In this document: positions 9,445-36,994 of the stretch, one piece after another | How positions within the stretch are numbered: the first letter of the stretch is position 1 | How the letters are laid out: every line of letters begins with the position of its first letter | DNA from: a virus | Virus record (IMG/VR): IMGVR_UViG_3300045131_001573 | Coordinates: 1-41,956 of that record | Direction: 5' to 3' (one strand) | Length of the DNA stretch: 41,956 bases | The notes under the pieces: generated by a model | Database searches by the model: none | Told to the model about the DNA's origin: nothing | The model's input: only the letters and a program-made list of their open reading frames with translations | Position numbers and translations under genes: made by a program

Positions 9445-10118
9445 GCGATCTAGTTGTTATTCCGATTGATTCACGGGATGCTTTTCAGTGGATATTGAAA
9501 CGGCATTACGCAAAAAGAATGTGCCCGATTTCTTTCGCGTTTGGGGCTTATAGAGGATCATCTTTAATAGGCGTCGTAACATACGGAACTCCGGCAAGCG
9601 CACCTTTGCGCGGCGGCGTTTGCGGCGAAAAGTGGGCCGATAGTGTTTTAGAACTAAATCGGCTTTGTTGTGAAAACTCAAAAAACATTGCAAGTTTGCT
9701 TGTGGGGCGCTCGCTTCGGTTGTGTCCAAAGCCTTCCGTTATTGTAAGCTATGCCGATACCGCACAAGGGCATATTGGATATGTTTACCAAGCCACAAAC
9801 TTTTTATATACCGGTCTTTCGGCAAAGCGCACAGATTGGAAAATTAAAGGCAGGGAGCATTTACACAGCGCAACCGTGGCCGACGAAAGCAGGGGAAAAG
9901 AACACAGGGCTGATTGGATGCGCGAAAAATACGGGGACGATTTTTATTTAATGGACAGACCGCGAAAGCATAGATACGTCTATTTTTGCGGAAACAAAAA
10001 CCAGCGCAATGAAATGCGATCAGTTTTGAGGTATTTTGTTGAGCCATACCCAAAAGGAAAAAGCGAAAGATACGACGCAAGCGCGGAAATAGAAACGCAG
10101 GGGGTATTATTTACATGA
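9441..10118 (+). CDS. Mom-like DNA modification enzyme
   Basis: 225 residues from the GTG at 9441. It resembles the Mom family (phage Mu momylase, GNAT-like fold), which converts adenine in DNA to N6-carbamoylmethyl-adenine to resist restriction. Matching features are the early HYAKR (22-26), the strand pattern FAFGAYRG and LIGVVTYG (32-49), ELNRLC (71-76), SYADTAQGHIGYVYQA (103-118) followed by TNFLYTG, and the late RPRKHRYVYF. Together these are the usual order of the family. The gene is coupled to a 19-residue leader ORF. Toxicity of premature modification would explain the coupling. Family fit is good; the exact modification is unproven. Confidence 0.75.
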   Translation: MSDLVVIPIDSRDAFQWILKRHYAKRMCPISFAFGAYRGSSLIGVVTYGTPASAPLRGGVCGEKWADSVLELNRLCCENSKNIASLLVGRSLRLCPKPSVIVSYADTAQGHIGYVYQATNFLYTGLSAKRTDWKIKGREHLHSATVADESRGKEHRADWMREKYGDDFYLMDRPRKHRYVYFCGNKNQRNEMRSVLRYFVEPYPKGKSERYDASAEIETQGVLFT

Positions 10119-15415: not shown

Positions 15416-16519
15416 ATGAAAATAAATATCTCAATGACGGAATACAAACACGTTATATCGGGCTTGTCTAAAGTCGGGGAAACATCGAAGAAAAATAGGA
15501 TATTTTCGCCGGTTGTCATTACGGCGGATGAAAGCGGAGTTACCTTTTTGCGCGTGAACTTTTACGGATCGTCGGCGGCGATATACTCCGCCAATACAGC
15601 AATCGCTACAGAATACGGGCGGGCGGTGTTTACTTTAGACGCTGCAAAACTTACGGCGAAGCAAAAGGCAAAAGATATTACAATCGAATCGGACGGCGAA
15701 AAGTCGCAAGCGTTTATTGATGGAGTAACTATTCCGCTTGATGGATACGAAAAAGACGAGGAGATTATGGCGCTTCCGTTTTTTTCAGAAGATGCACCAT
15801 ACCAGGAAAGCGATAATTTTTTAGCCGGATACCGCCGATGCTTGACTTGTGTGTCAACGGATCAGTCGCGTATAAGCTTGCAAGGTGTTTACGTTGACAA
15901 TAACGGCGCGCTTGTTTCTACCGACGGGCGGCGGCTTATGGTTCAAAATTGCGACATAGCAACCGACTGCGAAGAGTTTAAGGGCCAGATCATTCCGCCG
16001 TCTGATTTTTTGGCATGGGAAAAGCTCGCCGGGCCTTGTGGCGTTGCGTTTGAAAAAAATCAAGCGTTTTTTATTGTCGGAGATTGGTCATTTTCAATAA
16101 AGACGATTGACGCAAGTTTCCCCAATTATAAGCAAGTGATCCCGCATTACCAGGAGGCGGATCGGGAACCTTTACGCATTGCCCCAGATGATGTAGTTCG
16201 ATTACTTCCGTTTTATTCGGCCCGTAAAGATGCAAAATTCTCAAGGGTAGTTTTAGACGGCACGGGCGGCGGAGTTGTCGCCACTATGGGAACCATGACG
16301 GCCGCCTTGCCAGCAAGCGAATACAAGGGCCGAATCGGGTTAGATGTCGGCTTTCTTTTCGACTTTATTGATTGCGGTTTTTTAGAGTTTTCCGCCGATA
16401 ATAAAGACGGGTCAAGAAATCCCATTGTAGGGATAAACTTAACCGGAACAGCGGTATTAATGCCAATTAAAATTGACGACGTGCCAGCACAAGATGCACG
16501 GAAGGAAGGGGCCGCATAA
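15416..16519 (+). CDS. DNA polymerase III beta-like sliding clamp
   Basis: 367 residues, the normal length of bacterial DnaN. The second of the three clamp domains is clear: RRCLTCVSTDQSRISLQGVY and VSTDGRRLMV (about 138-175) is the STDxTRxxLxGV...ATDGHRL signature of beta clamps. KTIDASFPNYKQVIP (about 228-242) is the equivalent of GRFPDYRRVIP. The protein would load on DNA as a ring to hold the polymerase. Few phages carry a DnaN-like clamp. No polymerase or clamp loader is recognisable in the window, so it presumably works with host proteins. Confidence 0.85.
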   Translation: MKINISMTEYKHVISGLSKVGETSKKNRIFSPVVITADESGVTFLRVNFYGSSAAIYSANTAIATEYGRAVFTLDAAKLTAKQKAKDITIESDGEKSQAFIDGVTIPLDGYEKDEEIMALPFFSEDAPYQESDNFLAGYRRCLTCVSTDQSRISLQGVYVDNNGALVSTDGRRLMVQNCDIATDCEEFKGQIIPPSDFLAWEKLAGPCGVAFEKNQAFFIVGDWSFSIKTIDASFPNYKQVIPHYQEADREPLRIAPDDVVRLLPFYSARKDAKFSRVVLDGTGGGVVATMGTMTAALPASEYKGRIGLDVGFLFDFIDCGFLEFSADNKDGSRNPIVGINLTGTAVLMPIKIDDVPAQDARKEGAA

Positions 16520-22077: not shown

Positions 22078-23200
22078 ATCTTGGTTTTCGATGAAGTGCG
22101 TCAATGCCGCCGAAAAGCCGGACGAAGCGCAAGAAGTTGAAATTTGCATTTACGACGAAATCGGCATATGGGGCATTACGGCAAAGGATTTCGTTTCCGC
22201 TATCAAGCAATACCCCAAAGCCAAAACATTCAATATGCGGTTCAACACCCCCGGTGGGAGCATTTTTGACGGCTTTGCGATTTACAACTACATGAACGGT
22301 CTAGATGCCAAAATCGTCGGCTTTGTTGACGGCGTTTGTGCCAGCATGGGGTCGGTCATTTTGATGGCTTGCGACGAAATCGAAGTGCCGGAAAACGCTT
22401 TTGTAATGATTCATAATCCGGTCGGAACGGCCTTCATGGAAGACAGCGAGGGCTTGCGCGGAATGGCCGATTTGTTGGACAACATGAAAAAGGCCATTGT
22501 TGGGGCGTATGCGAAGCGTAGCGGCAAGAATGAAGATGAAATTTCCGGTTTGATGGACACCGTTACCTATATGAACGGCAAAGACGCTGTTGAAATGGGC
22601 TTTGCGGATCGTTGCGGCAAAGAGATTGATATGGCCGCTTGCGCCGATGTTTCGCGGCTTGAAAAATTACCGGAAGCCCTGCAAGCCAAGATTCAAACTT
22701 TGACGCCCCCCGCCGAAAAGCCGAGTGAAGAAGCTCCCCTCCCGGCTGATTCTCCGGCAAATGAAGCGGTTCCGGGCGTTCCCACTGTGCCGCAACCGGC
22801 TATCGAAGCTAAGGCGGTTGTCGAACCCGCCGCGCAAGTCGATCCCCGCGCCGAAGCCAAGGCGATGATCGAGTTGTTTGGCAAGGAAAAGGGCACACAA
22901 TATTTCGCGGATGGTTTGACTTTGCAGGAAGCCAAAGACAGATACCTTGGCGAACTCAAAGCCGAAAACGGGAAGCTCAAGGCACAGAATACGGAATTGG
23001 CGACGAATCTGGCGAAAATCCGCCTGAATCCCGCCATTCCCTTTCAGCCGCAAGCGGAATGTTTATCGGCATTGCGAGTTAGCGATGGAGAGTTTGAGGC
23101 GTATTGCAAAGCAAACGGAATCAGCGGAGAGAAAAAAGAAAAACTCCGTGCGTCATTAAAGGCTGACACGGAAAAACAAGAGGAGATCGAAAATGCGTAA
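22067..23200 (+). CDS. ClpP-like prohead protease with scaffold domain
   Basis: 377 residues. Residues 22-190 are a ClpP/S49-like serine protease: RFNTPGGSIFDGFAIYNY (58-75), nucleophile region VCASMGS (Ser93), His116 in FVMIHNPVG, and an acidic residue in GLMDTVTYMNG (Asp164). Residues 215-377 hold a Pro/Ala linker and a charged coiled-coil region (ELKAENGKLKAQNTELATNL), as expected for a fused capsid scaffold. Such proteins guide head assembly and then process the scaffold. AAAGGATAGCG precedes the ATG. Confidence 0.88.
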   Translation: MNSKSWFSMKCVNAAEKPDEAQEVEICIYDEIGIWGITAKDFVSAIKQYPKAKTFNMRFNTPGGSIFDGFAIYNYMNGLDAKIVGFVDGVCASMGSVILMACDEIEVPENAFVMIHNPVGTAFMEDSEGLRGMADLLDNMKKAIVGAYAKRSGKNEDEISGLMDTVTYMNGKDAVEMGFADRCGKEIDMAACADVSRLEKLPEALQAKIQTLTPPAEKPSEEAPLPADSPANEAVPGVPTVPQPAIEAKAVVEPAAQVDPRAEAKAMIELFGKEKGTQYFADGLTLQEAKDRYLGELKAENGKLKAQNTELATNLAKIRLNPAIPFQPQAECLSALRVSDGEFEAYCKANGISGEKKEKLRASLKADTEKQEEIENA

Positions 23201-23876
23201 GTTGTTTGTTGGACTGATTGCGGCTATTGCGGTTGCCAGCCTCGCTTTCGGCGCGGCTTTGACGGCGGAGCGGAATACCCCGTCGCGTGCTGGCACGGCT
23301 ATCGAAGTTGGCGTCAAAACCAATACGATTGTCTATGCCGGGTCGCTTGTGGCGATTGACATTTCGACCGGATACCTCGTTCCCGCCGCCGACACCAATA
23401 ACCTTGTGGTTATCGGTCGGTGCGTGAAAACGGTTGACAATCGCACCAATGCCTCCGGTGCCGGTGCGTCTGGCGCGTTAAAGGCGCAAGTTGAACGCGG
23501 AGTTTTCCAGTGGGGAAATAGCACGGGCGTCACCGATGCGGACATTGGAGCTTTCGCCTTTGTGAAAGACGACAATTCCGTTGACGATACCGCCACGGAT
23601 CATAGCGTTATCGCCGGCGTGATTGTTGACGTTGACGGCGGTGGCGTGTGGGTTGACACCTACAATGTTCCCGGCGCGGCTTCCAGCGTGACTACCCTTG
23701 CGGCTAGTGGTAACGCCACGGTGGGCGGGACGCTCGCTGTTACCGGCGCGGCTACCTTGACGGGCGGCATTGTCGGCGGCATGAGTGGCACCATCACCAA
23801 CGGGATCGGCGCGGCTTCAACCAACCGGATTTTCGTTGTTGGCGGCGTGATTTCTTCCAATGTTGTTTCGCCGTAA
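23193..23876 (+). CDS. Capsid decoration-like protein (DUF2190-like) with signal peptide
   Basis: 227 residues. Residues 30-160 resemble DUF2190-type capsid cement proteins: AGTAIEVGVKTNTIVYAGSL, VAIDISTGYLVPAADTN, RGVFQWGNS, FVKDDNSVDD and IAGVIVDVDGGGVWVD. The position between protease and major capsid genes fits. The N-terminus MRKLFVGLIAAIAVASLAFG is a textbook Sec signal peptide with AxA-type sites shortly after, which is unexpected for a protein that must meet capsids in the cytoplasm. The C-terminal 60 residues have fibre-like repeats (ATVGGTLAVTGAATLTGGIV). Start supported by GAGGAG. Confidence 0.7.
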   Translation: MRKLFVGLIAAIAVASLAFGAALTAERNTPSRAGTAIEVGVKTNTIVYAGSLVAIDISTGYLVPAADTNNLVVIGRCVKTVDNRTNASGAGASGALKAQVERGVFQWGNSTGVTDADIGAFAFVKDDNSVDDTATDHSVIAGVIVDVDGGGVWVDTYNVPGAASSVTTLAASGNATVGGTLAVTGAATLTGGIVGGMSGTITNGIGAASTNRIFVVGGVISSNVVSP

Positions 23877-23916
23877 TCGACTGTAACTAAACTTAAAAGG
23901 AAAGAGAGCAAATCAG

Positions 23917-24873
23917 ATGGACATCAATCGTGCGAACATGGACATTTTCTTCACCGAGTGCATGACGACCTTTTCGGACGGCATGAATGCTCGGCGCGAC
24001 AATCTCGTTCTGAACAAGGTCGGAATGCAGATTCCCAGCACCACGGCAGTCGCCGTGCATGGCTGGCTTTCGCAAATCCCCTCGATGCGTAAGTGGGTCG
24101 GGGAACGGAAAGCGCGTAACCTGAAATCCGGTAAACTGAGCGTGACCAATGCCAAGTTAGAGAACACCATCGAAATCACCCGCGACGAATTCGAGGATGA
24201 TATGCACCGGCTTTATCTGCCAACCTTTGGGTTGATGGGTCAGGACGCAATGGCGATGAAAGATCGTTGCCTTGTTGACGCGCTGTTACAAAACGGAAAT
24301 TGGGCTGATGCGGCGGCGTTTTTCGGCGACAGCCGCGTGTATGGCTCGGCTACTATCGACAACTACGATACTACCGCCTACAGCGAAGACGGTGCGGCGC
24401 TGAATACCGCCTTCACCAAAATGACCAGCTATCTCGGCGATGGCGGCGTGCCTTTAATGGTTCGCCCGTTCGCCATTCTGCATGGTCCGGCGTTGCGTGC
24501 TAAGGTTCAGAAGTCTCTCTCCGCTTACGGCGCGTTGCTTGCGTCGGCTACGCAGGTGGGTGGGATGATTGTGAACCCGAACGCGAATATCGTGACGCCC
24601 ATCGAATCGCCTTACCTGATTGACGGGTATGTCGATATGGACGGCAATACCTATGCCAACGCCGGGAAGCATTGGTTTTTGCTTGGCGAGGTCGGCGGCA
24701 TTAAAGGTCTGGTTTACCAGAGCCGGATTGAGCCTGAGATGCAGGATGCGCGGGCACGGCTGGACAGCGATTTCGCTTTCCAGAACGACAAGATTCAGTG
24801 GGGCGTGCGCGCCCGTGGCGCTGGCTTCCTGTCTCTCCCGCACCTGATCTATGGTTCGTTCGCCACGGCCTAA
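23917..24873 (+). CDS. Major capsid protein, Mu gpT-like
   Basis: 318 residues, close to Mu gpT (305). The family pattern is clear: HGWLSQIPSMRKWVGERKAR (about 48-67), then NAKLENTIEITRDEFEDD (about 77-94), a glycine-rich middle and PYLIDGYVDMDGNTYANA before the end. gpT-type proteins build the icosahedral head with an HK97-like fold. Pairing a Mu-type capsid with lambda-type terminase and portal shows mosaic ancestry. The ribosome site is AAAGGAAAGAGAG. A strong terminator follows, consistent with high-level expression. Confidence 0.88.
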   Translation: MDINRANMDIFFTECMTTFSDGMNARRDNLVLNKVGMQIPSTTAVAVHGWLSQIPSMRKWVGERKARNLKSGKLSVTNAKLENTIEITRDEFEDDMHRLYLPTFGLMGQDAMAMKDRCLVDALLQNGNWADAAAFFGDSRVYGSATIDNYDTTAYSEDGAALNTAFTKMTSYLGDGGVPLMVRPFAILHGPALRAKVQKSLSAYGALLASATQVGGMIVNPNANIVTPIESPYLIDGYVDMDGNTYANAGKHWFLLGEVGGIKGLVYQSRIEPEMQDARARLDSDFAFQNDKIQWGVRARGAGFLSLPHLIYGSFATA

Positions 24874-24892
24874 TCGCGAAGTAACAACCTAA

Positions 24893-24925
24893 GCGGCGGG
24901 CGGACAACCCCGCCCGCCGCTTTTT
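24893..24925 (+). terminator. Strong rho-independent terminator after the capsid gene
   Basis: GCGGCGGGCGG (24893-24903) and CCGCCCGCCGC (24910-24920) form a perfect 11-bp GC stem with a 6-nt loop, followed by TTTTT. It probably lowers read-through so that connector and tail proteins are made in smaller amounts than capsid protein. Confidence 0.9.
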
Positions 24926-24928
24926 AAT

Positions 24929-25243
24929 ATGACAATCGACTTGACAGTTTGGGATCGTGACGCGGTGGCAATCCAAAACGATTTGCCGGTTAGCGTCGTT
25001 TGGAAAAGCCAAACGTATCAAGCGATGCGTAGCGAGCGGACAAAGGGGCGCAATATCGAATTCGCTGGCACAGAAGAAACCCTGAGCGTAACGATTTTGG
25101 TTATTCACTCGATTTGGGTTAACGGCATTCCAAAAGAAAACGACATCGTTACCCTCGGATCGGATAAGTATCGGGTCATTGGCACGATTGATTCACCGGA
25201 TAATCTTTCAACTCAGTTGCAATGCGAAGAGGCCGACAAGTGA
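24929..25243 (+). CDS. Head-tail connector-like protein
   Basis: 104 residues with a beta-rich composition (DLPVSVVWKSQTYQAM, ETLSVTILVIHSIWV, DKYRVIGTIDSP). Size and position after the capsid gene fit small head-closure or adaptor proteins. The ATG follows the terminator's T run by only three bases and has no ribosome site, so translation may be weak or depend on a different start. The assignment is by position. Confidence 0.55.
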   Translation: MTIDLTVWDRDAVAIQNDLPVSVVWKSQTYQAMRSERTKGRNIEFAGTEETLSVTILVIHSIWVNGIPKENDIVTLGSDKYRVIGTIDSPDNLSTQLQCEEADK

Positions 25244-25944
25244 TTGCACCGCGAATCGAAATGGACATGACGGAGTTTAATGCGGCAGTGGCGCAATATG
25301 CCAATGCGACCAAGAAGACATTGGCGACCGCAACGAACCGTCAATTTGTCAATTTAACGATCCATGCGGTAAAGGATGCGAAAAAGGCACAGGCGGCAGA
25401 AATTCGGGCGGTTACTAAAAAGGATTTTTGGCCGAAAATGGTCGCAAGACACATTTCCCGTAAATTCGGAAAGCGGTTTGGGAAAAAGGCCGGGCAAGTC
25501 GCATGGCTTAAACAGCATGGCGGCATGCGCGGGATGAACAGATACGAAAAGCAGTGGTATCGGAAGTTGTACGAAAAGTATAGCCGTCAATTTTTGGCGC
25601 AACGGCTAGGCGCAATTCGGTATATCACCGTGTTTTTCAATATTATGTCAAACAAGGCCGAACAGATTACCGGGCTTCGCGCCCCTAAGATGCACGGCTT
25701 TACGGCAATAAGCCGATTTAAGTCCTATTTCCTTCCGGCGATTGACGGCAAAACCACAAAAGCCGAATCGCGCATTGAATACCCGTACAAGTATCGAAAA
25801 GATCGGGCCGTGCGTACTGCCGATGCGGAATTGGATTCGGCTCTTCAAAAAGCGATACCGGCGACTATCCGCGATATATCTGAATACGTTTTTAAGCAAC
25901 TTGATAAACAAGCAAAAATCAATTCCGCTAAGGGGGCTGCATAA
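25240..25944 (+). CDS. Minor tail/neck protein
   Basis: 234 residues from the GTG at 25240, which overlaps the previous stop. The protein is highly basic and helical in its first half (TKKDFWPKMVARHISRKFGK), with Tyr/Arg-rich stretches in the middle (EKQWYRKLYEKYSRQF). Position between connector-like and terminator-like genes suggests a neck or tail-completion protein comparable to lambda gpZ. No sequence motif proves this. Confidence 0.5.
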   Translation: MIAPRIEMDMTEFNAAVAQYANATKKTLATATNRQFVNLTIHAVKDAKKAQAAEIRAVTKKDFWPKMVARHISRKFGKRFGKKAGQVAWLKQHGGMRGMNRYEKQWYRKLYEKYSRQFLAQRLGAIRYITVFFNIMSNKAEQITGLRAPKMHGFTAISRFKSYFLPAIDGKTTKAESRIEYPYKYRKDRAVRTADAELDSALQKAIPATIRDISEYVFKQLDKQAKINSAKGAA

Positions 25945-26429
25945 TGGGACAGTGGCATACACCGCAGGCTAAAACGGAAGAGGCGCTCCGCAGGTTGTTT
26001 GCACATTCTGAGGATGATCTCCAAAGCGTGCAAGTGCTTTCCCGGTTTTCAAATAAGCCAATTACGCTTCCGATGATACGAATCCTGTGTCAAGCGGCTC
26101 CTTATGGCGCGGAAAGCGGAGATGCGATAACTAGCGGTAATTGGCGCGTTTCGGCAACTATCAGGGTAACTACGCATTACAAAAGCGCGGATGGCGATGG
26201 ATGCGATCCGACGGACGTTGAAGTCATTGAACACGACCGAATTGCGGCGGTTGTCATGGACTCGCTGTTTACCGACGATTTGCCGAAAACCCTTAACGAT
26301 CTTATGCAAGACGAGGATTTCACGGCTCAAATGTGGACTCCCGGTTCATGCGTATCTTCTGAGCCTTCCGATGGCCGCCTGATAACTGAAATATCATGCG
26401 AAATAGTAATGGCACCCTCACAGCTATAA
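25944..26429 (+). CDS. Tail terminator-like protein
   Basis: 161 residues, alpha/beta, with a shared-start overlap (TAATG). Strands WRVSATIRVTTHYKSA and LITEISCEIVMAPSQL frame a helical middle (DRIAAVVMDSLFTDDL). In many siphophages a protein of this size before the tail tube gene is the tail terminator (lambda gpU). The assignment is by size and position. Confidence 0.5.
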   Translation: MGQWHTPQAKTEEALRRLFAHSEDDLQSVQVLSRFSNKPITLPMIRILCQAAPYGAESGDAITSGNWRVSATIRVTTHYKSADGDGCDPTDVEVIEHDRIAAVVMDSLFTDDLPKTLNDLMQDEDFTAQMWTPGSCVSSEPSDGRLITEISCEIVMAPSQL

Positions 26430-26444
26430 CGAAAGGAAAACATC

Positions 26445-26837
26445 ATGCCCTCGGCGACAGTTACACAACGCGGTATTCCGGTGGTGGTTGGGTTTAACGG
26501 AGTGGCGAACTCGACTTGGTTTCAGATGGAAACGTCTGGCGAAAAGCCTACCGCCCGAACGAAGTTCATTCGCGACGAAAACAACAATCGTTGCACCATG
26601 CTTATTTCAAATAAGGGCGGCGAGTTTACCTTAACCGGGACAGTTAAAGACGATCCTACGCACACATTGTTAACGGCATTGCGAGCGCTAAATCGCGGAT
26701 CGCTTTTGACGGTTACGGCACCGGCTGGCGGGACGGCCAAAAAGTGCGCCATTCAAGACGTGGACTTGAAGTTTTCGCGCACGCAAGCAAGCGGTACGAT
26801 TACGGCGCGATACATCGTTGACATTGACCCCACCTAA
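26445..26837 (+). CDS. Tail tube-like protein 1
   Basis: 130 residues, start with AAAGGA. The sequence is beta-rich: IPVVVGFNGVANSTWFQMET, GEFTLTGTVKDDPTHTLL, GSLLTVTAP, CAIQDVDLKFSRTQASGTIT. It is clearly related to the next gene (GFNGV, SGEKP, EFTL/TIxG, D-x-x-L-x-F-x-R-x-x-A-x-GTI), so the two arose by duplication. Place and fold fit major and minor tail tube proteins. Confidence 0.6.
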   Translation: MPSATVTQRGIPVVVGFNGVANSTWFQMETSGEKPTARTKFIRDENNNRCTMLISNKGGEFTLTGTVKDDPTHTLLTALRALNRGSLLTVTAPAGGTAKKCAIQDVDLKFSRTQASGTITARYIVDIDPT

Positions 26838-26851
26838 AATAAAGGAAAACC

Positions 26852-27223
26852 ATGAGTACTGAAATCGCACAAAAAGGGCAAAAGGTTTTAGTCGGCTTTA
26901 ACGGCGTAACATATACGGGCTTCATCATGGATAGCTCCGGCGAAAAGCCGGTCGGCGATTTGGGATACATTCCCGATGACAACGACAATGACGCTACTCA
27001 GATTTTCAGTGATGACGGCACGGAATTTACGATTGCTGGCGTAATTAAAAACGTCTCCACAGAAGAGCTTGCCAATCTACGCCTGATTGAAATCGGAAGC
27101 GATCTTACGGTGAACAGCATTGCCTGTATTGTCACCGATGCAAATCTGAGCTTTCAGCGGCTTGACGCCACAGGGACGATTAGCTGTTCGTATTTACCGG
27201 CGATCAATGAAGCAGAAGCGTAA
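26852..27223 (+). CDS. Tail tube-like protein 2 (paralogue)
   Basis: 123 residues, start with AAAGGAAAACC. It shares with the previous gene KVLVGFNGV, SSGEKPVGD, TEFTIAGVIK, a leucine-rich middle, DANLSFQRLDATGTISC and similar length. One of the pair probably forms the tube and the other a specialised ring (initiator or end). Which is which cannot be told from sequence. Confidence 0.6.
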   Translation: MSTEIAQKGQKVLVGFNGVTYTGFIMDSSGEKPVGDLGYIPDDNDNDATQIFSDDGTEFTIAGVIKNVSTEELANLRLIEIGSDLTVNSIACIVTDANLSFQRLDATGTISCSYLPAINEAEA

Positions 27224-27244
27224 CACGCCGGGCGGAGGTGTCCG

Positions 27245-27793
27245 GTGCATTCGTGTTATGAAAAGGCTTTAATTCCGGGACGCATAACGATAATGGGGTT
27301 TGAAATGGCCCCATTGTCTCTTATGCATTGCTTTGTTTTGATGGGATTGAAGTCTCCGCTTGTCGATCCGAATACCACGGAAACCAATCTGTCGTTAGAA
27401 AACTTCATTACGGCAACCTGTATTTGTTCGCTTGATTACGACGGGATTGTCGCTTTTTTGGATAACCCCAATCGCAATAAGCAAATCGAACAGTGGCACG
27501 AAAAGATCAACAGGGAATCGCCAGACTTTTCGCAAGAGATAAACAGGTTTTTAGATTGGTTTTTTGGCGAAACGAAGTCTCACCCGCATTGGGACGAACG
27601 GAAGAAAAACGGGAAAATAACCGAGACTAGGAAAAGCGTGATTCCGTGGCCGATTAGAATCGCGTGGGCCTTGATTGCAAAACTTGAAGAACGCCGGGCG
27701 TGGAGTATGCCAATAGGTTTGGCGTTGTCCTATTATGCCGCCGTACAGGAAGAAAACGGCGACGATATGCTTATGTCGGAGGGGGAAGAATAA
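27245..27793 (+). CDS. Tail assembly chaperone-like protein
   Basis: 182 residues from a GTG at 27245 with GGCGGAGG upstream. The N-terminal part is hydrophobic (MAPLSLMHCFVLMGLKSPLV) and the remainder helical with an acidic end. Its position between tube and tape measure genes is that of tail assembly chaperones (lambda gpG). No ribosomal frameshift product was evident, although the tape-measure frame is open for 93 bp upstream of its ATG. Confidence 0.55.
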   Translation: MHSCYEKALIPGRITIMGFEMAPLSLMHCFVLMGLKSPLVDPNTTETNLSLENFITATCICSLDYDGIVAFLDNPNRNKQIEQWHEKINRESPDFSQEINRFLDWFFGETKSHPHWDERKKNGKITETRKSVIPWPIRIAWALIAKLEERRAWSMPIGLALSYYAAVQEENGDDMLMSEGEE

Positions 27794-29448
27794 TGGCTAC
27801 CGCAACACTCAATACTGTGGTCAAAGGCGATGCGTCCCAATATCACAAGACAATGGACGGGGTTAGCGATAAGGCCAAGCAAACAACGTCGGCGATTGGC
27901 GATTTGGGAAAATCCATAGGCGGTGCTTTTGTTGTCAAAAGAATAAATGATTGGATGACAGAACTTGGGAAATCAGCCGAGGCGGTTACTGATGTTGCGG
28001 CTGCTTTTGAAATATCGACCGAGCGGTTGCGAGCCATTTATGCGGTAGGTCTTTTTGCCGGTGTTGATGAAACTCAAAAAATTGACGTGATGCTTGGCAA
28101 ACTTGACAAGAAGCGCCAATCTGCATTAGCGGGCGACAGGGACGCCGTTGCTTCTTTCGCCGGATTGAAAGTCTCGATGCTTGACTTGGCTGGGCCGATG
28201 GACAACCTACTTGATGTTGTAATGAAAAACGCCCATGCGTTGAAAGCAAACAACGACGCTATGGACGGGCTTTACAATATTTTTGGAAAAAACACCGGCG
28301 CAATGAAAAAGTTTTTCAATGAAATGAAAGACGGCATTGATGTCGCGCAAGAAAAGTATCGCGAATTAGGACTGATTATAGATGATGAAACCACGGCAAA
28401 GCTTACGGCATGGAATGAACAGCAAAAGCAAACAACGGAAGTTTCCAAAAACCTTGCGTCTGTCGCCGTTGGATATGCGGTTTCATTAATCGGAAAGCTA
28501 TTTGAGGCGATGGAAAAGTTTGATTGGTGGTATCAGAGCAAATATTCTTCAGCTTCGCTTCTTGTTGATTTAGCAACCGGGATAGCGCCATATAGAGTCT
28601 CCCAAGGAATTGTCGAAGAACTAGCTGGCGACGGATTTCCAAAAAGCGATGTCCGGCTAAAATCGCGATATGAATTGGAAATGTCCCAGCCGGAAACAAT
28701 CGCGACGGCAGAGGGATCGGAAGAATGGCTAAAAAAACGAGAGACTGAGCGCGAGCGGCTTAGTGTAATTGTTCAAAAATTAGAAGATGCACGCGCTAGA
28801 GTGGATGCTAAAACACAGAAAGCAGGTAAAAACGACGGACTTTTCCCCGGCCTTTCAGATAAGGCACGCGATAAAGTGCGCGATACGTTTAACCAACGGT
28901 TGCAGTCGGCAGTTGCGGCGCTAAAGGAATACGAAGACGAAACCAACGTCATTTACCAGCGTGCCGCAGATGCCGAAATGACTATTCTCAATAAGCAGGC
29001 CGAGGCGCTTGACAAGGCGGCTAAAGAGCGCAAGGACCGACACGATAAGGAATTGAAAGAAGAATTGCGGACGATTGAAGAGCGGCAAAAGATTTATGAC
29101 GACGCCGGAAAGGAATTCGATTCCGCGGTAAAAGAGCGCATGGACATTGGTGCTGACCGCGATAAAATTCAAGCGCAATTTGAGAAAATCCGAAGCGGCG
29201 AAACATTGGGCGCAATCGACATTCGGGCGGCGGATCAGGTTACAAAGGTCGGCGGGCTATTGGGAAATCAGTTTGCCGGTTTATCGGATTTTGGGCGTAT
29301 GATTCAAATCAATGAACAGATCAGGGATTTTCAACGCGACAACAATATTAAGCTTTCAGAATTAGCCAATCGGTTTGTTGACAATATTGATAGGCTTAAC
29401 GACGCAACCGCCGCAATAGAAAAATTTACGACGGAGGTTACTGAATAA
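27793..29448 (+). CDS. Tail tape measure protein
   Basis: 551 residues from the ATG at 27793 (MATATLNTVVKGDASQYHKT), where TAATG overlaps the previous stop; SD GGAGGGGG. The N-terminal 100 residues carry the usual tape-measure start (ATLNTVVKGDASQYHKTMDG, KQTTSAIGDLGKSIGG). A short hydrophobic segment (LASVAVGYAVSLIGKLF, about residues 220-236) and long charged coiled-coil helices follow (DKEL, ERQK, KERMD). The length would set a comparatively short tail. Family placement rests on architecture and position. Confidence 0.72.
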   Translation: MATATLNTVVKGDASQYHKTMDGVSDKAKQTTSAIGDLGKSIGGAFVVKRINDWMTELGKSAEAVTDVAAAFEISTERLRAIYAVGLFAGVDETQKIDVMLGKLDKKRQSALAGDRDAVASFAGLKVSMLDLAGPMDNLLDVVMKNAHALKANNDAMDGLYNIFGKNTGAMKKFFNEMKDGIDVAQEKYRELGLIIDDETTAKLTAWNEQQKQTTEVSKNLASVAVGYAVSLIGKLFEAMEKFDWWYQSKYSSASLLVDLATGIAPYRVSQGIVEELAGDGFPKSDVRLKSRYELEMSQPETIATAEGSEEWLKKRETERERLSVIVQKLEDARARVDAKTQKAGKNDGLFPGLSDKARDKVRDTFNQRLQSAVAALKEYEDETNVIYQRAADAEMTILNKQAEALDKAAKERKDRHDKELKEELRTIEERQKIYDDAGKEFDSAVKERMDIGADRDKIQAQFEKIRSGETLGAIDIRAADQVTKVGGLLGNQFAGLSDFGRMIQINEQIRDFQRDNNIKLSELANRFVDNIDRLNDATAAIEKFTTEVTE

Positions 29449-30311
29449 TGAGTGCGCCAATAGCATTAAAAGGTCGATCAGATTTTGTTAAGCAAGTCGT
29501 TTCCGGCTCTACCGATTACACCAAAGGTTCCGGCGAAATCGTGCGCGACGAGTGGCACTACGGGGGCCAAAGCGAATCGGCTATTACCTCGTTTAAAAGC
29601 AACCTTAAAAACGCTGGATACGAAAACATCACCGTTAAGCGCGGCGTTCCGACCGTCATTTCGGCAACTTATGTTGATACGCTTAATAGCGGGGGGAGTG
29701 CGGCGGCGGATTTAAACGCCGTCAATGAGGCTGAATGGCTTTTGACTTATGTTACCGTTCAACGCGACATACGGACAAGCGATGATTTTCAGCGCAACCC
29801 CAAAATTAATGAACTGCTTGACTACATTGATGTTCTTAAAAAGAACAATACGCTAGGCCAGACAGATTTAAGCGGCGGCGAGGCTGACTTTATTGTTGTT
29901 AATGAGGTTACGATATGGGACTTTAACAATAATGCTTTACGCGATGCCATCGTTAGAGGCGCGGAAACGTACTACGATTATTACCGGGTCATTCGCCAAA
30001 CCATAACGACCAATTCTAAAACATTAATGAAGCTTTCCCATGATAATGCATTTCACAGGATTTCGCTTGCCGACATTGGCGTGCCTCCTCGGTATCAGGA
30101 AATTTACAACATTCAAGCACCGCGCCGTCAAATACGCAAGGGTCGCGAAGAGGATGTCCTTTGGCTAATTCAGCCTCCGCAATTTGTTCCGGTCGGAAGG
30201 CGTAAATATCAAATCGTCAAGGAATGGTGGGAAATACAGCCAGACAAGTTCCTTTACAAGCTGGCTGGCACAAACGATTGGCCGACATGGACGGCGGGGG
30301 ATGACGGATAA
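29448..30311 (+). CDS. Tail protein, probable baseplate or hub component
   Basis: 287 residues, start with GGAGG and TAATG overlap. It is beta-rich at both ends (HYGGQSESAITSF, RKYQIVKEWWEIQPDKFLYK) with a helical middle. Position right after the tape measure gene is that of distal tail or hub proteins. No specific motif was recognised. It also has an unusual run of Tyr/Asp residues (AETYYDYYRVIRQT). Confidence 0.5.
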   Translation: MSAPIALKGRSDFVKQVVSGSTDYTKGSGEIVRDEWHYGGQSESAITSFKSNLKNAGYENITVKRGVPTVISATYVDTLNSGGSAAADLNAVNEAEWLLTYVTVQRDIRTSDDFQRNPKINELLDYIDVLKKNNTLGQTDLSGGEADFIVVNEVTIWDFNNNALRDAIVRGAETYYDYYRVIRQTITTNSKTLMKLSHDNAFHRISLADIGVPPRYQEIYNIQAPRRQIRKGREEDVLWLIQPPQFVPVGRRKYQIVKEWWEIQPDKFLYKLAGTNDWPTWTAGDDG

Positions 30312-30832
30312 TGAAATCTGCGTTCATACTTCCTACAAAACTATTGCGTGGCGTTCATCGAAAGAAAATCAATGAAATACTTGATTATCTTGCCGGTGAG
30401 CGACTAAACGACACGCCGTCCGTGCGCTTTGATAGAACAACGGCTGGAATTTTTCCGACTGTACGGATACCGCAATCAAGCTCATTTGGAGAAATTGACA
30501 CATGGACCTATTTTGGCTTTCGGTTGTTAGGAACGTCAACGCTCGAAATCAAATCCCGTGCGGCAACCTTTCATTCAATCGGTTTTTCCGGCACGGTTGA
30601 ACAGCAAACCGTGGCGTTGACCGGAACAGAGGCATGGGTGTACGTCGAAATTGACCGGCGTGCAGTATCCGGAGGGGTGTTTCCCGTGCGGGTAGCCGCA
30701 TCCCGTCCGGGATCTGATCAAACCTTTTTAAATTGGACCCTCTACCGTTTTGACCTTTCGGGCGGATCGTACACCCTGGGGCACGTCGGGGCGTGGGATC
30801 TGAACATTGACAACCCGGTGGCCAGCACATGA
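30311..30832 (+). CDS. Tail-associated hypothetical protein
   Basis: 173 residues. After a basic N-terminus (MKSAFILPTKLLRGVHRKKI) the protein becomes beta-rich with Gly/Thr/Ser (EIDTWTYFGFRLLGTSTLEI, VEIDRRAVSGGVFPVRVAAS). It probably belongs to the tail tip or serves as a fibre base. From about 30650 the DNA becomes more GC-rich, leading into the next gene. Confidence 0.5.
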   Translation: MKSAFILPTKLLRGVHRKKINEILDYLAGERLNDTPSVRFDRTTAGIFPTVRIPQSSSFGEIDTWTYFGFRLLGTSTLEIKSRAATFHSIGFSGTVEQQTVALTGTEAWVYVEIDRRAVSGGVFPVRVAASRPGSDQTFLNWTLYRFDLSGGSYTLGHVGAWDLNIDNPVAST

Positions 30833-32934
30833 AACGGGCAATCATAATCCTTTGGGCAGTGGGGCTGGCTTGCCCTGTGCGGGGGCAAACGGGCTACCCC
30901 TATTCCAGTACCACCCAAACGACTTGGAACGCCTTTGAACGGCAATGGAGTCCGGTTTTGACGTGGTATAGCGGGCTGGTCGAACGGGCGGCTATCGTCG
31001 GGATCACAAACCCCCCGGCTCTGGTCCAATCGTTTACCGTGGCGACGGGGATAACGACCGCCGTTACCGGGCCGGTGACTAATGTGTTTGACGGGGTGAC
31101 GAACGTTTACTATTTCACCAATGTTTCGGCCATTGCTTATGGATCGGTGGTGGTGACCGGGTTGACCCCCTCAGCCTACGGGGTAACGATTGACGGGGTT
31201 TCGGGCGTATCCACGGCATTTCCAATCCTTACGGCTGTCCTGATAACCAACCTAGACACCTATCATGACGCGCTCTACCCGGCCTTTTGCCCCACGTCCG
31301 CCTGCTGGGGCGGATCTTACGCCTATTGGATGGACGCTTACACTAATCTGCACGGCGGGGTTGCATGGCGGACGCTGGGGGTCGATACGCCGGGGAACAA
31401 GGCGCAAACCTTCGAGGAGTCTGGCGTCGGGCTGGTATCCGGTCCCGAAACGAACGATCTCGGATGGATCACTAACGGCGCGGCCTTATGGTCCTCACCC
31501 ATGCGCGGATTCAGCGGTGGCGACTTCCGGCTGGCCAGCGTCAATGCCGAATTATCCTATGTGGCGACGGGCTTCCCGACGGCCGCCGGTATCGACTTCA
31601 ACGGGGTCTATCGGTGGGCGGATTCAGAAAACTACTACGATATTTTAGGCTTCGGGACTCCCCGGATGATGCCGGGCGCATTCTGGCGGGATCGGGTGAC
31701 GCCTAGCGTCAACATTTTCACCTTTGACGAAATCCCGAATTGCAGCTTTTACGAGGCTGGGGGGACCAATATTTTGTTGGGTTCGCCGTCCATTGCCGAT
31801 GTGGGCTGGGCGTTCAGTTTTGCGCTTGATGATAACAGCTTGCTTTATGGCTTCGGGAAGCCCACCGGAGCAACGAACTGGTTTGAGTGGAGCAGCGGGT
31901 TGACGACAAACCCGGTGCCCGGTTCGATTGCGCGTGGACTGGCTTGGAACTATCGGGCGGGCGGATCATGGATCAAGCCCGCCATGCCGCCGCAATCTAT
32001 CCCGACCCCCGCCGACAGTTGGCTTGTGACGAACGGGGCGGAAGTGCTGCGCTATTCGAGGCAGTCAACCAATTACGCGGCGGTTGACGTGACGATCAGC
32101 GGGTCCGCCTTTGCGCCGGGTGTGGGGTATTATGAGACTTCCGCTGTGGTTTCCGTGTCCGGTCCATTGACCGCCGTTCCGGTCACGTTCGCCGGGGTCA
32201 CGAACATGACGGCAAGCGGGGCGTTTACAAATGGAGACTCGATCACCCTCTGGATGACCAATCGCGAGCTTTACACCCTGAACGCAAGCACCTGGGGCAC
32301 GATCAATAAGCGGGCGATGGATGAACGGATTGCCGCATTGAAGCCGTTGCGGTGGACGGTAAAAACCGATTTCGCATTGACGGCCATCGAAACAAATATC
32401 TGGCAGGGATACAACGAAAACAGTTCAGCCAGTGAAGCGCAGGCGTACAGCAACGCCGTTGCCAGCATGGCTCCGGGGTTCACCGACTACGGAGCAACCC
32501 CCGCGTTGCCGGATAGCGAGGGGCACTACGGCTCGGCTTACATCGACACCTATTACACCGGGCACAAGTGCGAAATCGTGGTATTGCGAAAGTATTTTTC
32601 CTATTCGATCACCAATCTCCCGACCCATATCCCGCACTCGGTTGACGTGCTGATGAACGTGTCAACCATCCCCCAAAATGATATTGGCTATCCGCAATCA
32701 TTTTGGAGTGACATACCGGGCGGCGGGGTGCAAGGGCTGACTTTCGTTTATACCAATATCCCGTCATCTACGAACTCCGGCCACACGATCACCTTGCGCC
32801 CGGCCAATACGAACGCGCCGGCGGTTGATGAATACCCTACCTTTGACGAAGCGACGGCGAACGGTGGGCGGCTAATCAAAGGCTTTCAATCCCCACAGCT
32901 ACAAGCCGTCATCAAGTGGGAGCCGATGTTTTGA
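30829..32934 (+). CDS. Large secreted-type fibre-like protein
   Basis: 701 residues with a Sec-like N-terminus, MKRAIIILWAVGLACPVRG, followed by QTGYPY. The remainder is Thr/Asn/Gly/Val-rich, predicted all-beta, with repeated TN pairs (VTNVFDGVTNVYYFTNVSA) and aromatic positions, a composition common in secreted proteins of Verrucomicrobiota and relatives. The gene is GC-rich compared with the tail genes on either side, which suggests separate acquisition. It may be a fibre, receptor-binding protein or exported protein. The start overlaps the previous stop by 4 bp. Confidence 0.6.
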   Translation: MKRAIIILWAVGLACPVRGQTGYPYSSTTQTTWNAFERQWSPVLTWYSGLVERAAIVGITNPPALVQSFTVATGITTAVTGPVTNVFDGVTNVYYFTNVSAIAYGSVVVTGLTPSAYGVTIDGVSGVSTAFPILTAVLITNLDTYHDALYPAFCPTSACWGGSYAYWMDAYTNLHGGVAWRTLGVDTPGNKAQTFEESGVGLVSGPETNDLGWITNGAALWSSPMRGFSGGDFRLASVNAELSYVATGFPTAAGIDFNGVYRWADSENYYDILGFGTPRMMPGAFWRDRVTPSVNIFTFDEIPNCSFYEAGGTNILLGSPSIADVGWAFSFALDDNSLLYGFGKPTGATNWFEWSSGLTTNPVPGSIARGLAWNYRAGGSWIKPAMPPQSIPTPADSWLVTNGAEVLRYSRQSTNYAAVDVTISGSAFAPGVGYYETSAVVSVSGPLTAVPVTFAGVTNMTASGAFTNGDSITLWMTNRELYTLNASTWGTINKRAMDERIAALKPLRWTVKTDFALTAIETNIWQGYNENSSASEAQAYSNAVASMAPGFTDYGATPALPDSEGHYGSAYIDTYYTGHKCEIVVLRKYFSYSITNLPTHIPHSVDVLMNVSTIPQNDIGYPQSFWSDIPGGGVQGLTFVYTNIPSSTNSGHTITLRPANTNAPAVDEYPTFDEATANGGRLIKGFQSPQLQAVIKWEPMF

Positions 32935-32971
32935 AATTGACAAACGCATATAATAAAAGGAAGAATACGCC

Positions 32972-33415
32972 ATGAAAAAAATGATGCTCGCTTGTTTGGT
33001 TATCGCCGGGTTTGTTGCCGTTGTAATGGCCGCGAATGAGATCAATATTTCAGCGGGAATCGTAGCGCAGAAGGGTTACGCCAACGTCTACAAACAGCCG
33101 GGGAGTATCCCGATTACTTGGAACGGGTCGAAGGCATTTTCGACGATCCTGTCTTTGAGTGATGTTCCGGTCGCGCTGTCAAAGGGTGCCGTGGTCAATG
33201 TGGGGTACTGCTACGCACGGAATAACGACCAAACGAATACTGTTGCGCTTTCGAGTTTGGGTGTCACCAACCTGATATTCAAGCCGGGGGAGTTCGCCTT
33301 ATTCCGGTTATCCCCTGACATCGACATGACGGCCATTTATGCCAACTGCATAAGCAATGCCGTCGTGACGAATAACGGGCTGGCAGATTTCGAGTTCACC
33401 ATTTTGGAGGATTGA
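32972..33415 (+). CDS. Small secreted-type protein
   Basis: 147 residues with a clear signal peptide, MKKMMLACLVIAGFVAVVMA, then ANEINISAGI; AAAAGGAAG precedes the ATG. The mature part is beta-rich (KGAVVNVGYCYARNNDQTNT, FKPGEFALFRLSP) with one or two Cys pairs. It sits between two large signal-peptide proteins in the tail region, so it may be an accessory of the fibre or an exported protein. Confidence 0.6.
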   Translation: MKKMMLACLVIAGFVAVVMAANEINISAGIVAQKGYANVYKQPGSIPITWNGSKAFSTILSLSDVPVALSKGAVVNVGYCYARNNDQTNTVALSSLGVTNLIFKPGEFALFRLSPDIDMTAIYANCISNAVVTNNGLADFEFTILED

Positions 33416-33417
33416 CC

Positions 33418-35778
33418 ATGCGCTATATTATCGCCTTGCTTGTTTTATCATTAGCCGTCAATGCGTCTGATTTGGATGTGCGGCATTTATATATGACAAA
33501 CGACGTTACGGCAACACGTCCGGCTGTTGCGCCGTTAAAATGGTATGGCGGCGAATCGGTAAAGTTTGACTTGTGGGCGGTGCGAGGAACTAATCCGATT
33601 GACCTGTCGGCAAGTGGACTTTATGCTAGGTGGGAGTCATTTGGCACCAATTTAAGCCTTGCCTATATTATGTCAACCGGAACGATTTATAGCGCAAGCA
33701 ATGGGTGGGTTAAATTTGATTTGACCCCCGAAGCGGCAAACCTCCCGACCGGCACATATTCTAGTTTCGTTAAATTATATCAGCCAATAGGCGGCACTAA
33801 TCGCTATGTCGGCACAATCGCAAAAACTGACTTGCAAGTGCTTTGGGGGCCAAGCGCGTCAAGTGTAACTTATGCTGGACCATACGGAGGGGCGTTCGAT
33901 TACATCGCCTATTCAAACCTTGCGGCGGGGCTTAACATTCAGCTTGTGCGGTCCGGCTCCCTGTTGACCATAAATGGCGTTGTGACTAGCGGAGTAGCCG
34001 GAGTTTCGTCAGTCACAAATACAGCAGACATCGAGGCCACGGAAGGCGGCGTCGGGAATATCGGGCTTACATTGTCCGATGCAAGATTGGCAAGTCTTTT
34101 GAAAGCCGACTCTGCCCTAACAAACCCCGCGCAATTCGCAACGGCGGCACAAGGCGAGCGGGCTGACATGGCCCCCACCAATACGAGCGAAGCTTACCCC
34201 TTGACCGGCAACCCGTCCGGCTTCCTGTTACCCGCATCCACTCAAAACCTCGCAACGGTCGCGCAGTTATCTGGCTACGTTCCGACCAGCCGCACGGTAA
34301 CGATTAACGGGACGATTGGCAATTTCTCAAGCAATCTTGATTTCACCATTTCGGTTACGGGCGGGGCTGGCGTGGTTGGTGACTATGTGTCAAACGGCAT
34401 GGCCACGGTCAACGGCAACGCGATCAGCAACGGGGCGGCGATTTCTTTAACGGCGGCGAATGTTGGGGCGTTAGGATTGACGGGCGGAACACTCACCGGA
34501 AATCTATACATCCAAAAAACCCTTGGAATCGGGGTATGGGATAATTTACAGGATGAATCTTTTGTTGACGCAATATACTGGACTTCCAACCACGCCGGGA
34601 TAGTCACCCATGCCCTGCTAAACGAATTTACTATTCCCCCCGTTATGAGTGGGGCGGGAATATTGAGCGGCACGATTGCCAGCCAGCAAGTCGCCAGCGC
34701 AACCGACGACGCCTATCGCAACCCGACCACGATGGTAACAAGCGTCGAGGGGAGAGCCGGTCTTACAAACATTACTGGCATGACTGACGCTGTTATTCTT
34801 GGGTTGTCACTCCGAACACAGGATAGCTTGTACCGGGCTGATTTAGCTGTTACGAATTTTCAAACGGTCACACTCTATTCGACAAACCTAACCCCGTCCG
34901 GTTCTGAATTGCCTAGCCTGAATTATGTCCGAAGCCTGTTAAATAGCGGAGTGTATTATTACAACTCGACAAACACTATCGTCAATGGGTATTCGGCCAC
35001 CGGATACGTTTATCAGGCGACCACCCCCGCACCGTTCAATCGAAGTTACGGAATCGCCAGCAACAATCAATATGTCGGAGAGGTATTCACGCCGTCAATC
35101 CTGACAAACGCAACCGGACCCGCAACGGTCACAATTTACGCCAGAGTTTCAGGGGGTGGCAACCCGACTGTGACGATCAGTCCGGAACTGTATTTTACAG
35201 CAGATTTAACAAACACGATTTATGAGGCGGCTGATGTTCCATCGCAGACTATAGCGGCAAGCACAACAAGCAATTCATATCAATGGGTGTTTTCATTTCC
35301 GCAACAAACATCGCCCGTTTATGCCATGCGTCGGCTAAAAGTCATTTCGTTTTCAGGAACGCCGACGTTGACGCTGTACGGTGGGAGCAATCAGGTTTCG
35401 ACGCTGGCGATCAGCTCGTCATCTGGCGGCGGCAGCGGCACGGGCGGCGGCGCAACCGGCGAGGACATCACCAACGTGTTTAAGCAGGCCACTTGGACCC
35501 CCTACGCAATCCCCTACAGCACGAATATCACAGTAGACGTAACGAACGGCAACGCGCAGGCCTGCACCCTGACCGGACCGACGACGATCAACCTTTCGGC
35601 GGTGCAAACGAATCTTGGACAGACGATCTTTTTCGACCTGATAGCCGGGACGAACCCGGTCACCTGGGCGGCTTCAATTTCTAACAACTCCTCTATTTCT
35701 CCACGCGCTACAGGCACGACGCCGGTCAAATTCTCGCAACCGTTCATGCAGACTTATTGGAGGGTGAATAACCGATGA
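33418..35778 (+). CDS. Large modular fibre/baseplate-like protein with signal peptide
   Basis: 786 residues from the ATG at 33418, preceded by TTGGAGG. Signal peptide MRYIIALLVLSLAVNA, then SDLDVRH. Residues 20-150 resemble an N-terminal BppU-type domain (APLKWYGGESVKFDLWAVRG, ANLPTGTYSSFVKLYQP). A long fibre-like middle has SNGAAISLTAANVGALGLTG and GGTLTGNLYIQ, a motif typical of phage fibres. A Ser/Gly linker (SSSSGGGSGTGGG) then leads to a C-terminal domain of about 105 residues. DNA after the linker (35420 onward) is more GC-rich than before it, suggesting a swapped tip domain. Confidence 0.65.
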   Translation: MRYIIALLVLSLAVNASDLDVRHLYMTNDVTATRPAVAPLKWYGGESVKFDLWAVRGTNPIDLSASGLYARWESFGTNLSLAYIMSTGTIYSASNGWVKFDLTPEAANLPTGTYSSFVKLYQPIGGTNRYVGTIAKTDLQVLWGPSASSVTYAGPYGGAFDYIAYSNLAAGLNIQLVRSGSLLTINGVVTSGVAGVSSVTNTADIEATEGGVGNIGLTLSDARLASLLKADSALTNPAQFATAAQGERADMAPTNTSEAYPLTGNPSGFLLPASTQNLATVAQLSGYVPTSRTVTINGTIGNFSSNLDFTISVTGGAGVVGDYVSNGMATVNGNAISNGAAISLTAANVGALGLTGGTLTGNLYIQKTLGIGVWDNLQDESFVDAIYWTSNHAGIVTHALLNEFTIPPVMSGAGILSGTIASQQVASATDDAYRNPTTMVTSVEGRAGLTNITGMTDAVILGLSLRTQDSLYRADLAVTNFQTVTLYSTNLTPSGSELPSLNYVRSLLNSGVYYYNSTNTIVNGYSATGYVYQATTPAPFNRSYGIASNNQYVGEVFTPSILTNATGPATVTIYARVSGGGNPTVTISPELYFTADLTNTIYEAADVPSQTIAASTTSNSYQWVFSFPQQTSPVYAMRRLKVISFSGTPTLTLYGGSNQVSTLAISSSSGGGSGTGGGATGEDITNVFKQATWTPYAIPYSTNITVDVTNGNAQACTLTGPTTINLSAVQTNLGQTIFFDLIAGTNPVTWAASISNNSSISPRATGTTPVKFSQPFMQTYWRVNNR

Positions 35779-36284
35779 TAGCCAACTATTTAACGGGCGG
35801 AATAATGGACGGTGTGCCGGAGTCCTACGCAATGGCGGACGGCCGCTTTGTGAATCACCCAACGCTTGCGATCATGGCCCCGGACGGCTGGCGGCTGGTA
35901 TCGTCAAAGGCAGAACCCGAGTCCGGTTGGCGCGTCACGAAATGGAACGTACTACTGAACGACGGCGGGGAAACCGTGCGCCTTGAAATCGAAGAACAGG
36001 AAAACATCGCGGCGGTTGAACTCGCGGCGAACGGGGAACGGTGGGCACTTGATAATCGCTACATCGGGTATTGCGATCAGCTCAGAGTCGCGCTGGGTGG
36101 CCAGCAGACCAAGACCAAGCTGGGCTTTGAGGAACTCGAACCCATGATGCTGACACTCAAAGCGGCCTCCCTGCAATCGTACAACGATTTACGGGACGCC
36201 ATGCAAGTGGCGAACTCTGCGCTTATTCGTTTTGATGTGCGCTGGTGGGATAATTGCGTTTGGCATCCCGAGGTGGAAATATGA
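35775..36284 (+). CDS. Tail-region hypothetical protein
   Basis: 169 residues starting inside the previous stop (ATGA). It has an alpha/beta composition with many Trp and acidic residues (GWRVTKWNVLLNDGGETV, WWDNCVWHPEVEI) and no signal peptide, unlike its neighbours. It may be a chaperone or attachment protein for the fibre genes; no family recognised. Confidence 0.5.
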   Translation: MIANYLTGGIMDGVPESYAMADGRFVNHPTLAIMAPDGWRLVSSKAEPESGWRVTKWNVLLNDGGETVRLEIEEQENIAAVELAANGERWALDNRYIGYCDQLRVALGGQQTKTKLGFEELEPMMLTLKAASLQSYNDLRDAMQVANSALIRFDVRWWDNCVWHPEVEI

Positions 36285-36994
36285 TCAGATGGGCCGTCAT
36301 TCTTTCGCTGTTCGCAACGCTGGCCGGGGCGCAGGTTGCTCCGTTGCTTTTACGCGATAGCACGGAACCAGACCTTGCCATTGCTAGTGGACTTGTTGCC
36401 CATTACCCGTTTAATGGCACGGCGGCGAATACGGTTGACGGCACTCTCATCCCCAACTCGTCGTTTGCAGGGCCGGGAAGCAGGCAGGAATACTATCTGG
36501 CCAATCGCGTAACGAACGCCAATTTTAACGCGCTGTACGGCAAATCTTCAATGACGCTTTCGTGCTGGTGGCGGCTGGAAAATAAGACGACGCCGTTTTG
36601 CAGAGGGATCACCGTTGGCGCAAATGCAGGCGGAGTTTTGACCTTGATAACATCGTCAACGGGATCAACCATAGAACCCTATTTTCTAAACACATCGGCA
36701 CCAAGTTGGGAAAGATATTCATTGGGCGGAGTTTTTTCAACCGGCGTCTGGTTTCATTGCGCCGTAACCTATAACCTAACCGGCAATAATTGCCCCGTCC
36801 TCTACATCAATGGGATTCAACAGGCAACTACAAACGGGTTTATCGGGACCGCCGTGCCATTCACCGGAACGAACGTCCTAACGACCGGTCAGCTTCCCAG
36901 CGTTGCCCGTGTTCAGGGCGTGGCGATTTATGACCGCAACCTTTCGTCAAATGAAATTTGGACGCTCTATTCAGGATTCGTTGCGCCGCCATGA
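36281..36994 (+). CDS. LamG/concanavalin-like protein with signal peptide
   Basis: 237 residues from the ATG at 36281. Signal peptide MIRWAVILSLFATLAGA, then QVAPLLL. Residues 40-230 have the LamG/ConA-like pattern: ASGLVAHYPFNGTAAN, YGKSSMTLSCWWRLE, GVWFHCAVTYNLTGNNCPVL, YINGIQQATTNG and VQGVAIYDRNLSSNEIWTLY. Such domains bind sugars in receptor-binding and adhesive proteins. It is the last of the fibre-like genes, so recognition of surface glycans is likely. Confidence 0.8.
   Translation: MIRWAVILSLFATLAGAQVAPLLLRDSTEPDLAIASGLVAHYPFNGTAANTVDGTLIPNSSFAGPGSRQEYYLANRVTNANFNALYGKSSMTLSCWWRLENKTTPFCRGITVGANAGGVLTLITSSTGSTIEPYFLNTSAPSWERYSLGGVFSTGVWFHCAVTYNLTGNNCPVLYINGIQQATTNGFIGTAVPFTGTNVLTTGQLPSVARVQGVAIYDRNLSSNEIWTLYSGFVAPP

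Follow-up and report, generated by a model that had tools for sequence, protein, structure and literature searches.

The locus and its late genes

The window, by which we mean the whole stretch of DNA analysed here, comprises all 41,956 bases of a virus record in IMG/VR. Its late region encodes a large terminase, a portal, a ClpP-like protease, a virion protein of family phrog_1731 and a Mu gpT-like major capsid protein (MCP), and further includes a tape-measure-like gene and a fibre region. Judged by these core genes, the window phage is an ordinary tailed phage. The late features referred to below are as follows.

23193 to 23252, plus strand: Sec signal peptide of the decoration gene; cleavage likely after residue 20 or 21, helix at residues 2-20 in the AF2 model
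23193 to 23876, plus strand: capsid-decoration protein; phrog_1731 domain at residues 21-155, then a fibre-like C-terminal extension
23917 to 24873, plus strand: Mu gpT-like MCP, no signal; phrog_371 (E 9e-41), JBD30 capsid chain 8rkc (E 3e-23)
30829 to 32934, plus strand: 701-aa protein with a signal at 30829-30885; a signal-bearing gene lies at the same place in the sister phage L188
32972 to 33415, plus strand: 147-aa protein with a signal at 32972-33031; weakly similar to the signal-less L010:9698-10066
33418 to 35778, plus strand: 786-aa fibre-like protein with a signal at 33418-33465; C-terminal part shares 67% identity with the L188 fibre
35775 to 36284, plus strand: 169-aa signal-less protein between the fibre-like and adhesin genes; a gene of the same length lies at the same place in L188
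36281 to 36994, plus strand: LamG-domain adhesin with a signal at 36281-36331; PF13385 (E 2e-13)

The LamG assignment of the protein at 36281 in the original prediction was borne out by a match to PF13385 (LamG / Laminin_G_3) at 51.1 bits, above the curated cut-off of 27.6. The BppU-type start proposed for the protein at 33418 found no such backing, as this protein had no Pfam or PHROG match of its own; its relative in L188 matched the tail fibre family phrog_8147 weakly (E 0.003). The product of 35775 may be an assembly factor, perhaps a cytoplasmic fibre chaperone.

Several other features of the window were recorded. The genes at 26445-26837 and 26852-27223 are tandem paralogues (41% identical) that are tail-tube-like by position only. 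A Mom-family DNA-modification protein is encoded at 9438-10118 (PF25680, E 1e-40), as in phage Mu, and a phage-encoded sliding-clamp-like protein at 15416-16519 (PF02767, E 2e-5, slightly short of the curated threshold). The contig ends, 1-2979 and 38168-41956, are about 90% identical over several blocks, the opening 3 kb being present a second time in diverged form. The probable cause is an assembly that, on a circular or permuted genome, continued beyond its starting point with sequence of another strain; the true genome would then be about 38 kb long.

Signal peptides on five late genes

Sec-type (SPI) signal peptides open five late genes, namely 23193, 30829, 32972, 33418 and 36281. The N-termini, with cleavage sites that we read by eye and that differ from the top-scoring site of our signal rule in 23193 and 30829, are MRKLFVGLIAAIAVASLAFG followed by AALTAERN (23193), MKRAIIILWAVGLACPVRG followed by QTG (30829), MKKMMLACLVIAGFVAVVMA followed by ANE (32972), MRYIIALLVLSLAVNA followed by SDL (33418) and MIRWAVILSLFATLAGA followed by QVA (36281). 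The apolar runs span 22 residues in 23193, 18 in 32972 and 12-14 in the other three. The carriers comprise the decoration gene, the fibre-like gene, the LamG adhesin and two neighbours in the region to which no role is assigned.

Signals were called with a rule written for this analysis, distinct from SignalP, that looks for a positive n-region, a 9-residue apolar core and small residues at -3 and -1. It is strict, recovering seven out of 11 textbook E. coli signals. All five N-termini have these three elements, so that the signal peptides of the original prediction were found again by the rule. Five of the 20 late structural genes of the window were called, against a mean of 0.41 with shuffled N-termini, and none of 2000 shuffles reached five. 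At internal pseudo-starts the rule called 0.1%, and in control phage loci 30 of 583 genes (at least 80 aa), many of them lysis-type genes. No signal was called in the 15 remaining late genes, including those for TerL, portal, protease, MCP, tail completion, tube-like proteins and tape. One more call in the window, at 37122, falls on a gene that resembles a holin.

The signal of 23193 does not appear to be undone by a start codon further downstream, an objection that the original prediction had itself raised. Its signal-peptide ATG is preceded by a Shine-Dalgarno (SD) sequence, and no SD stands before any internal start codon close to the mature end. A wrong start codon was therefore rejected. 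Of the six signal-bearing relatives, every one except G276 has an SD match of 4-6 bases at the start; in G276 the SD stands before an in-frame ATG located two codons further on, which is also upstream of the apolar core.

The decoration gene

The protein at 23193 matched the phrog_1731 profile with an E-value of 1.1e-29 over positions 2-133 of 135, that is over the whole family length, in keeping with its description as decoration-like. The suggested likeness to DUF2190 is not supported, since no Pfam family was matched at E 0.1 and PF09956 (DUF2190) was therefore not among the matches. Over residues 22-155 the identity to JBD25 gp37 is 44%; gp37 starts M-ALTKDRNTP where the window reads ...SLAFGA-ALTAERNTP. 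The signal is placed exactly ahead of the phrog_1731 domain, and homologues in cultured phages open with M-ALTxxRNTP. The gene lies between the protease and the gpT-like MCP, as is usual for the family. It departs, by the added signal peptide, from the start M-(x)-ALT, which is typical of the family and not profile-defining. We filed it as a variant of phrog_1731, agreeing in profile and gene order and departing in the signal and the C-terminal extension.

In the AF2 model the signal forms a helix (residues 2-20), residues 22-157 fold confidently into a beta domain, and confidence is low for the C-terminal extension. Its best fold matches in the PDB were proteins of T1, Pam3, phi29 (gp8.5), HFTV1, lambda (gpD) and P21 (SHP), all of them capsid decoration or head-fibre-base proteins; the E-values were marginal (best 1.4e-3), with Foldseek probabilities near 1. 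The C-terminal extension (23673-23876, ASGNATVGGTLAVTGAATLTG...) is similar to fibre repeats. Such extensions are present in the signal-bearing decoration relatives except G276, and in some signal-less ones too. With its extension, the protein could be a head fibre.

Mass spectrometry of purified PaMx73 virions detected the product of ORF h, for which a role as a decoration protein was proposed; the gene is located between the protease/scaffold and major head genes (PMC4378225). The phrog_1731 homologue that we matched in the PaMx73 record is the gene at the ORF h position. From this homologue we infer that the phrog_1731 domain of 23193 is a virion protein.

Distribution of the signal in the decoration family

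Single-protein pattern searches with the MCP or TerL recovered no close relatives of the window, and L094 (IMGVR_UViG_3300021255_000142) had no 20-mer in common with it over the 14 kb of L094 compared. Among decoration homologues with a readable start, from cultured phages and 55 IMG/VR loci, a signal was found only in L010. In the MCP-based relatives L010, L090, L091 (near-identical to L092 and counted with it as one distinct relative) and L095, a signal-bearing decoration gene lies directly before the MCP, and the signal sequences differ from one another. Two Mu-like prophages, G276 (MKMQKKMIQFAAAAVMLLVATFALVGTFAPAPAGA...) and G458 (MRLLTALTLGIVATCVHA...), also encode a decoration protein with a signal. 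They belong to a class other than Lentisphaeria in the same phylum. In a tree of 52 sequences the signal-bearing decoration proteins formed one clade with support of 88/97, consisting of the window, four distinct IMG/VR contigs and the two chromosomal Mu-like prophages. Only one loss, in G260/G651, is needed within it.

The phage group probably infects Verrucomicrobiota, the host of the window phage being read from its relatives. The class of G276, which we take to be Kiritimatiellia as a guess from class size only, shares its phylum with a Victivallaceae MAG; this phylum is presumably Verrucomicrobiota in GTDB.

The trait was rejected as a generic one on two counts, both from prophage genes called by a simple script. 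It was absent from all of about 30 prophage decoration copies in Lentisphaeria, the neighbouring class that holds the Victivallaceae MAG. None of 24 DUF2190 cement proteins in the class of G276 carried a signal, which shows that it is no general feature of cement proteins there. Together with the signal-less phrog_1731 proteins of cultured phages, these DUF2190 proteins agree with the original view that such signals are unusual.

G276 and G458 carry signal-bearing fibre-like genes as well. No similarity could be detected between these fibres and the window proteins 30829, 33418 and 36281, so the signals were not inherited with the same fibre.

A sister phage and prophages with a second head family

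L188 (IMGVR_UViG_3300045131_001316) is a sister phage of the window, with 84-92% DNA identity in blocks within the fibre C-terminus, lysis and early genes. It differs in its head module, which has a phrog_1005 MCP, in the N-domain of its fibre and in its adhesin, which is glycine-rich where the window has LamG. The replacements bear signals too: a protein of 126 aa that immediately follows the MCP, the fibre, the adhesin and the gene in the place of 30829, whose signal was read by eye (MKTTILIYCSLVCMAAG). At the level of sequence, modules have been swapped between the two phages and the signal has been kept.

The signal-bearing head protein of L188 (L188:2849-3229), directly after the phrog_1005 capsid gene, belongs to a family of about 130 aa. 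The L188 copy had no PHROG match, and its AF2 model was uninformative (pLDDT 44). In prophages of one bacterial class, a signal-bearing gene of about 130 aa was found after the same type of MCP in G337, G290, G370, G484 and G538 by the rule and in G243 by eye, but not in G568. In addition, several prophages with a phrog_1005 MCP encode an ordinary cement-like protein, free of a signal, ahead of the MCP. Prophages of this type bear signal-carrying fibre-like genes, that of G290 including a tail-collar domain (PF07484, E 2e-19). In a survey of collar-domain proteins, most long ones had signals in the class of G276 compared with about one in Lentisphaeria, a pattern that is only suggestive as some of the proteins may be the host's. 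Two short elements, L220 and L223 (prophages of G460 and G381), carry several signal-bearing genes behind a capsid gene, and few of their genes can be recognised as tail genes. They are possibly remnants or satellites.

The sequences show that signal peptides are present in these phages and have been retained by selection, and they strongly imply that the five proteins of the window are exported and cleaved. With Sec signals on two unrelated head families and on several unrelated fibre and adhesin families, the pattern is hard to explain unless export is used.

Possible roles of the signal peptides

We consider it somewhat probable that the outer proteins are exported in late infection and fitted to particles when the inner membrane opens or at lysis. 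Assembly of capsid, portal, tail tube, tape and connector would take the cytoplasmic course of other tailed phages. Late in infection the decoration and fibre/adhesin proteins would leave the cytoplasm through cleavable Sec (SPI) signals, which would be removed. At the holin stage or at lysis these proteins would meet finished particles and bind them, an extracytoplasmic finishing step; that binding follows export is what we infer. The signal-bearing proteins look like the outermost, last-added components. In JBD30, decoration sites form only upon head expansion (PMC11445458), and T5 pb10 binds finished heads in vitro with picomolar affinity (PMC5292684). Such late sites and in vitro binding, together with the outermost, last-added look of the carriers and the occurrence of signals on unrelated families, lead us to favour export followed by fitting. 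JBD30 cryo-EM was set aside as a test of the family, since JBD30 has no member of phrog_1731 and its minor capsid protein, gp39, comes from a different gene.

Several points count against this explanation. The signal was lost in G260/G651, and the decoration family for the most part works without one; the signal-less 35775, which may encode a cytoplasmic fibre chaperone, sits between two fibre genes; addition in the periplasm or after lysis faces dilution; and the signals were called with our own rule, not with SignalP. A broader proposal is one that we hold more tentatively, as an appreciable possibility: that in a tailed-phage lineage infecting one class of Verrucomicrobiota the virions are finished beyond the cytoplasm, a Sec-secreted capsid-surface protein and receptor-binding fibres attaching to DNA-filled particles once the inner membrane has opened.

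The exported proteins might instead act at the host envelope and not on virions, which we regard as unlikely. Receptor-covering domains would then counter superinfection or re-adsorption to debris, or phage domains would have become surface proteins of a lysogen. Signals on all five proteins fit such a role, and LamG and Gly-rich domains suit carbohydrate binding. However, 23193 is the sole decoration gene found in the window and sits between protease and MCP, its homologue in PaMx73 is present in virions, and a further fibre set without signals is absent from the window.

Slow or partial export could leave a cytoplasmic pool for normal assembly, the signal serving as a brake or timer that would hold sticky outer proteins off immature heads and tails. 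Although decoration has to await head expansion (PMC11445458) and signal-less homologues are functional, the fibres and adhesins, which need no delay, bear signals as well, and the apolar cores are strong. We find this explanation, timer included, improbable.

Tethering of the proteins and of assembling particles to the inner membrane by uncleaved anchors is very improbable. The N-termini are hydrophobic and the apolar runs of 23193 and 32972 are long, but the short cores of the remaining three, the small-x-small motifs and the start of the decoration domain right behind the signal make assembly at a membrane anchor less likely. An artefact, from misplaced start codons or from N-termini that are hydrophobic by chance, for which the unannotated metagenomic contig and a TTG codon at the mature start of 23193 might speak, is hardly credible given the SD at the upstream start only, the shuffling result and the conservation of the signal in a clade and in integrated prophages.

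If outer virion proteins are secreted as favoured here, virion maturation would be split across two cell compartments, with decoration and host-range proteins fitted in the periplasm or outside. Phenotypic mixing between co-lysing phages would be possible, disulphides could form, and sticky fibres would be kept out of the cytoplasm. A signal peptide on decoration or fibre genes offers a sequence criterion for finding such phages, and the timing of outer-protein addition becomes directly testable.

Comparison with known systems

In the textbook account, tailed-phage assembly is wholly cytoplasmic. In the open-access literature searched, no previous description of signal peptides on decoration or fibre proteins of tailed phages came to light, though one could have been missed.

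Virion proteins with cleaved Sec signals are known from M13 (pIII and pVIII), a filamentous phage that assembles in the inner membrane and is extruded. M13 is unrelated to the window phage, whose core genes mark it as a tailed dsDNA phage, and nothing in the window points to a membrane assembly pathway of the filamentous type. Chronic-release Lentisphaerae phages (PMC11361711) were rejected as a parallel, since those seen extruding are filamentous and the window phage is tailed.

Lambda gpD, T5 pb10 and phi29 gp8.5 resemble the proposed system in being outer proteins that bind finished heads, and include fold matches to 23193. Unlike 23193, they are produced and bound in the cytoplasm and have no signal peptide. 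The phrog_1731 proteins of Pseudomonas Mu-like phages (D3112 orf34, JBD25 gp37 and PaMx73 ORF h) share the domain with 23193 over its full length and have the same gene place and a related MCP. They start with M-ALT, have no signal and end after the domain, whereas the window protein is longer by a signal of 21 residues in front and by a C-terminal extension of 70 residues.
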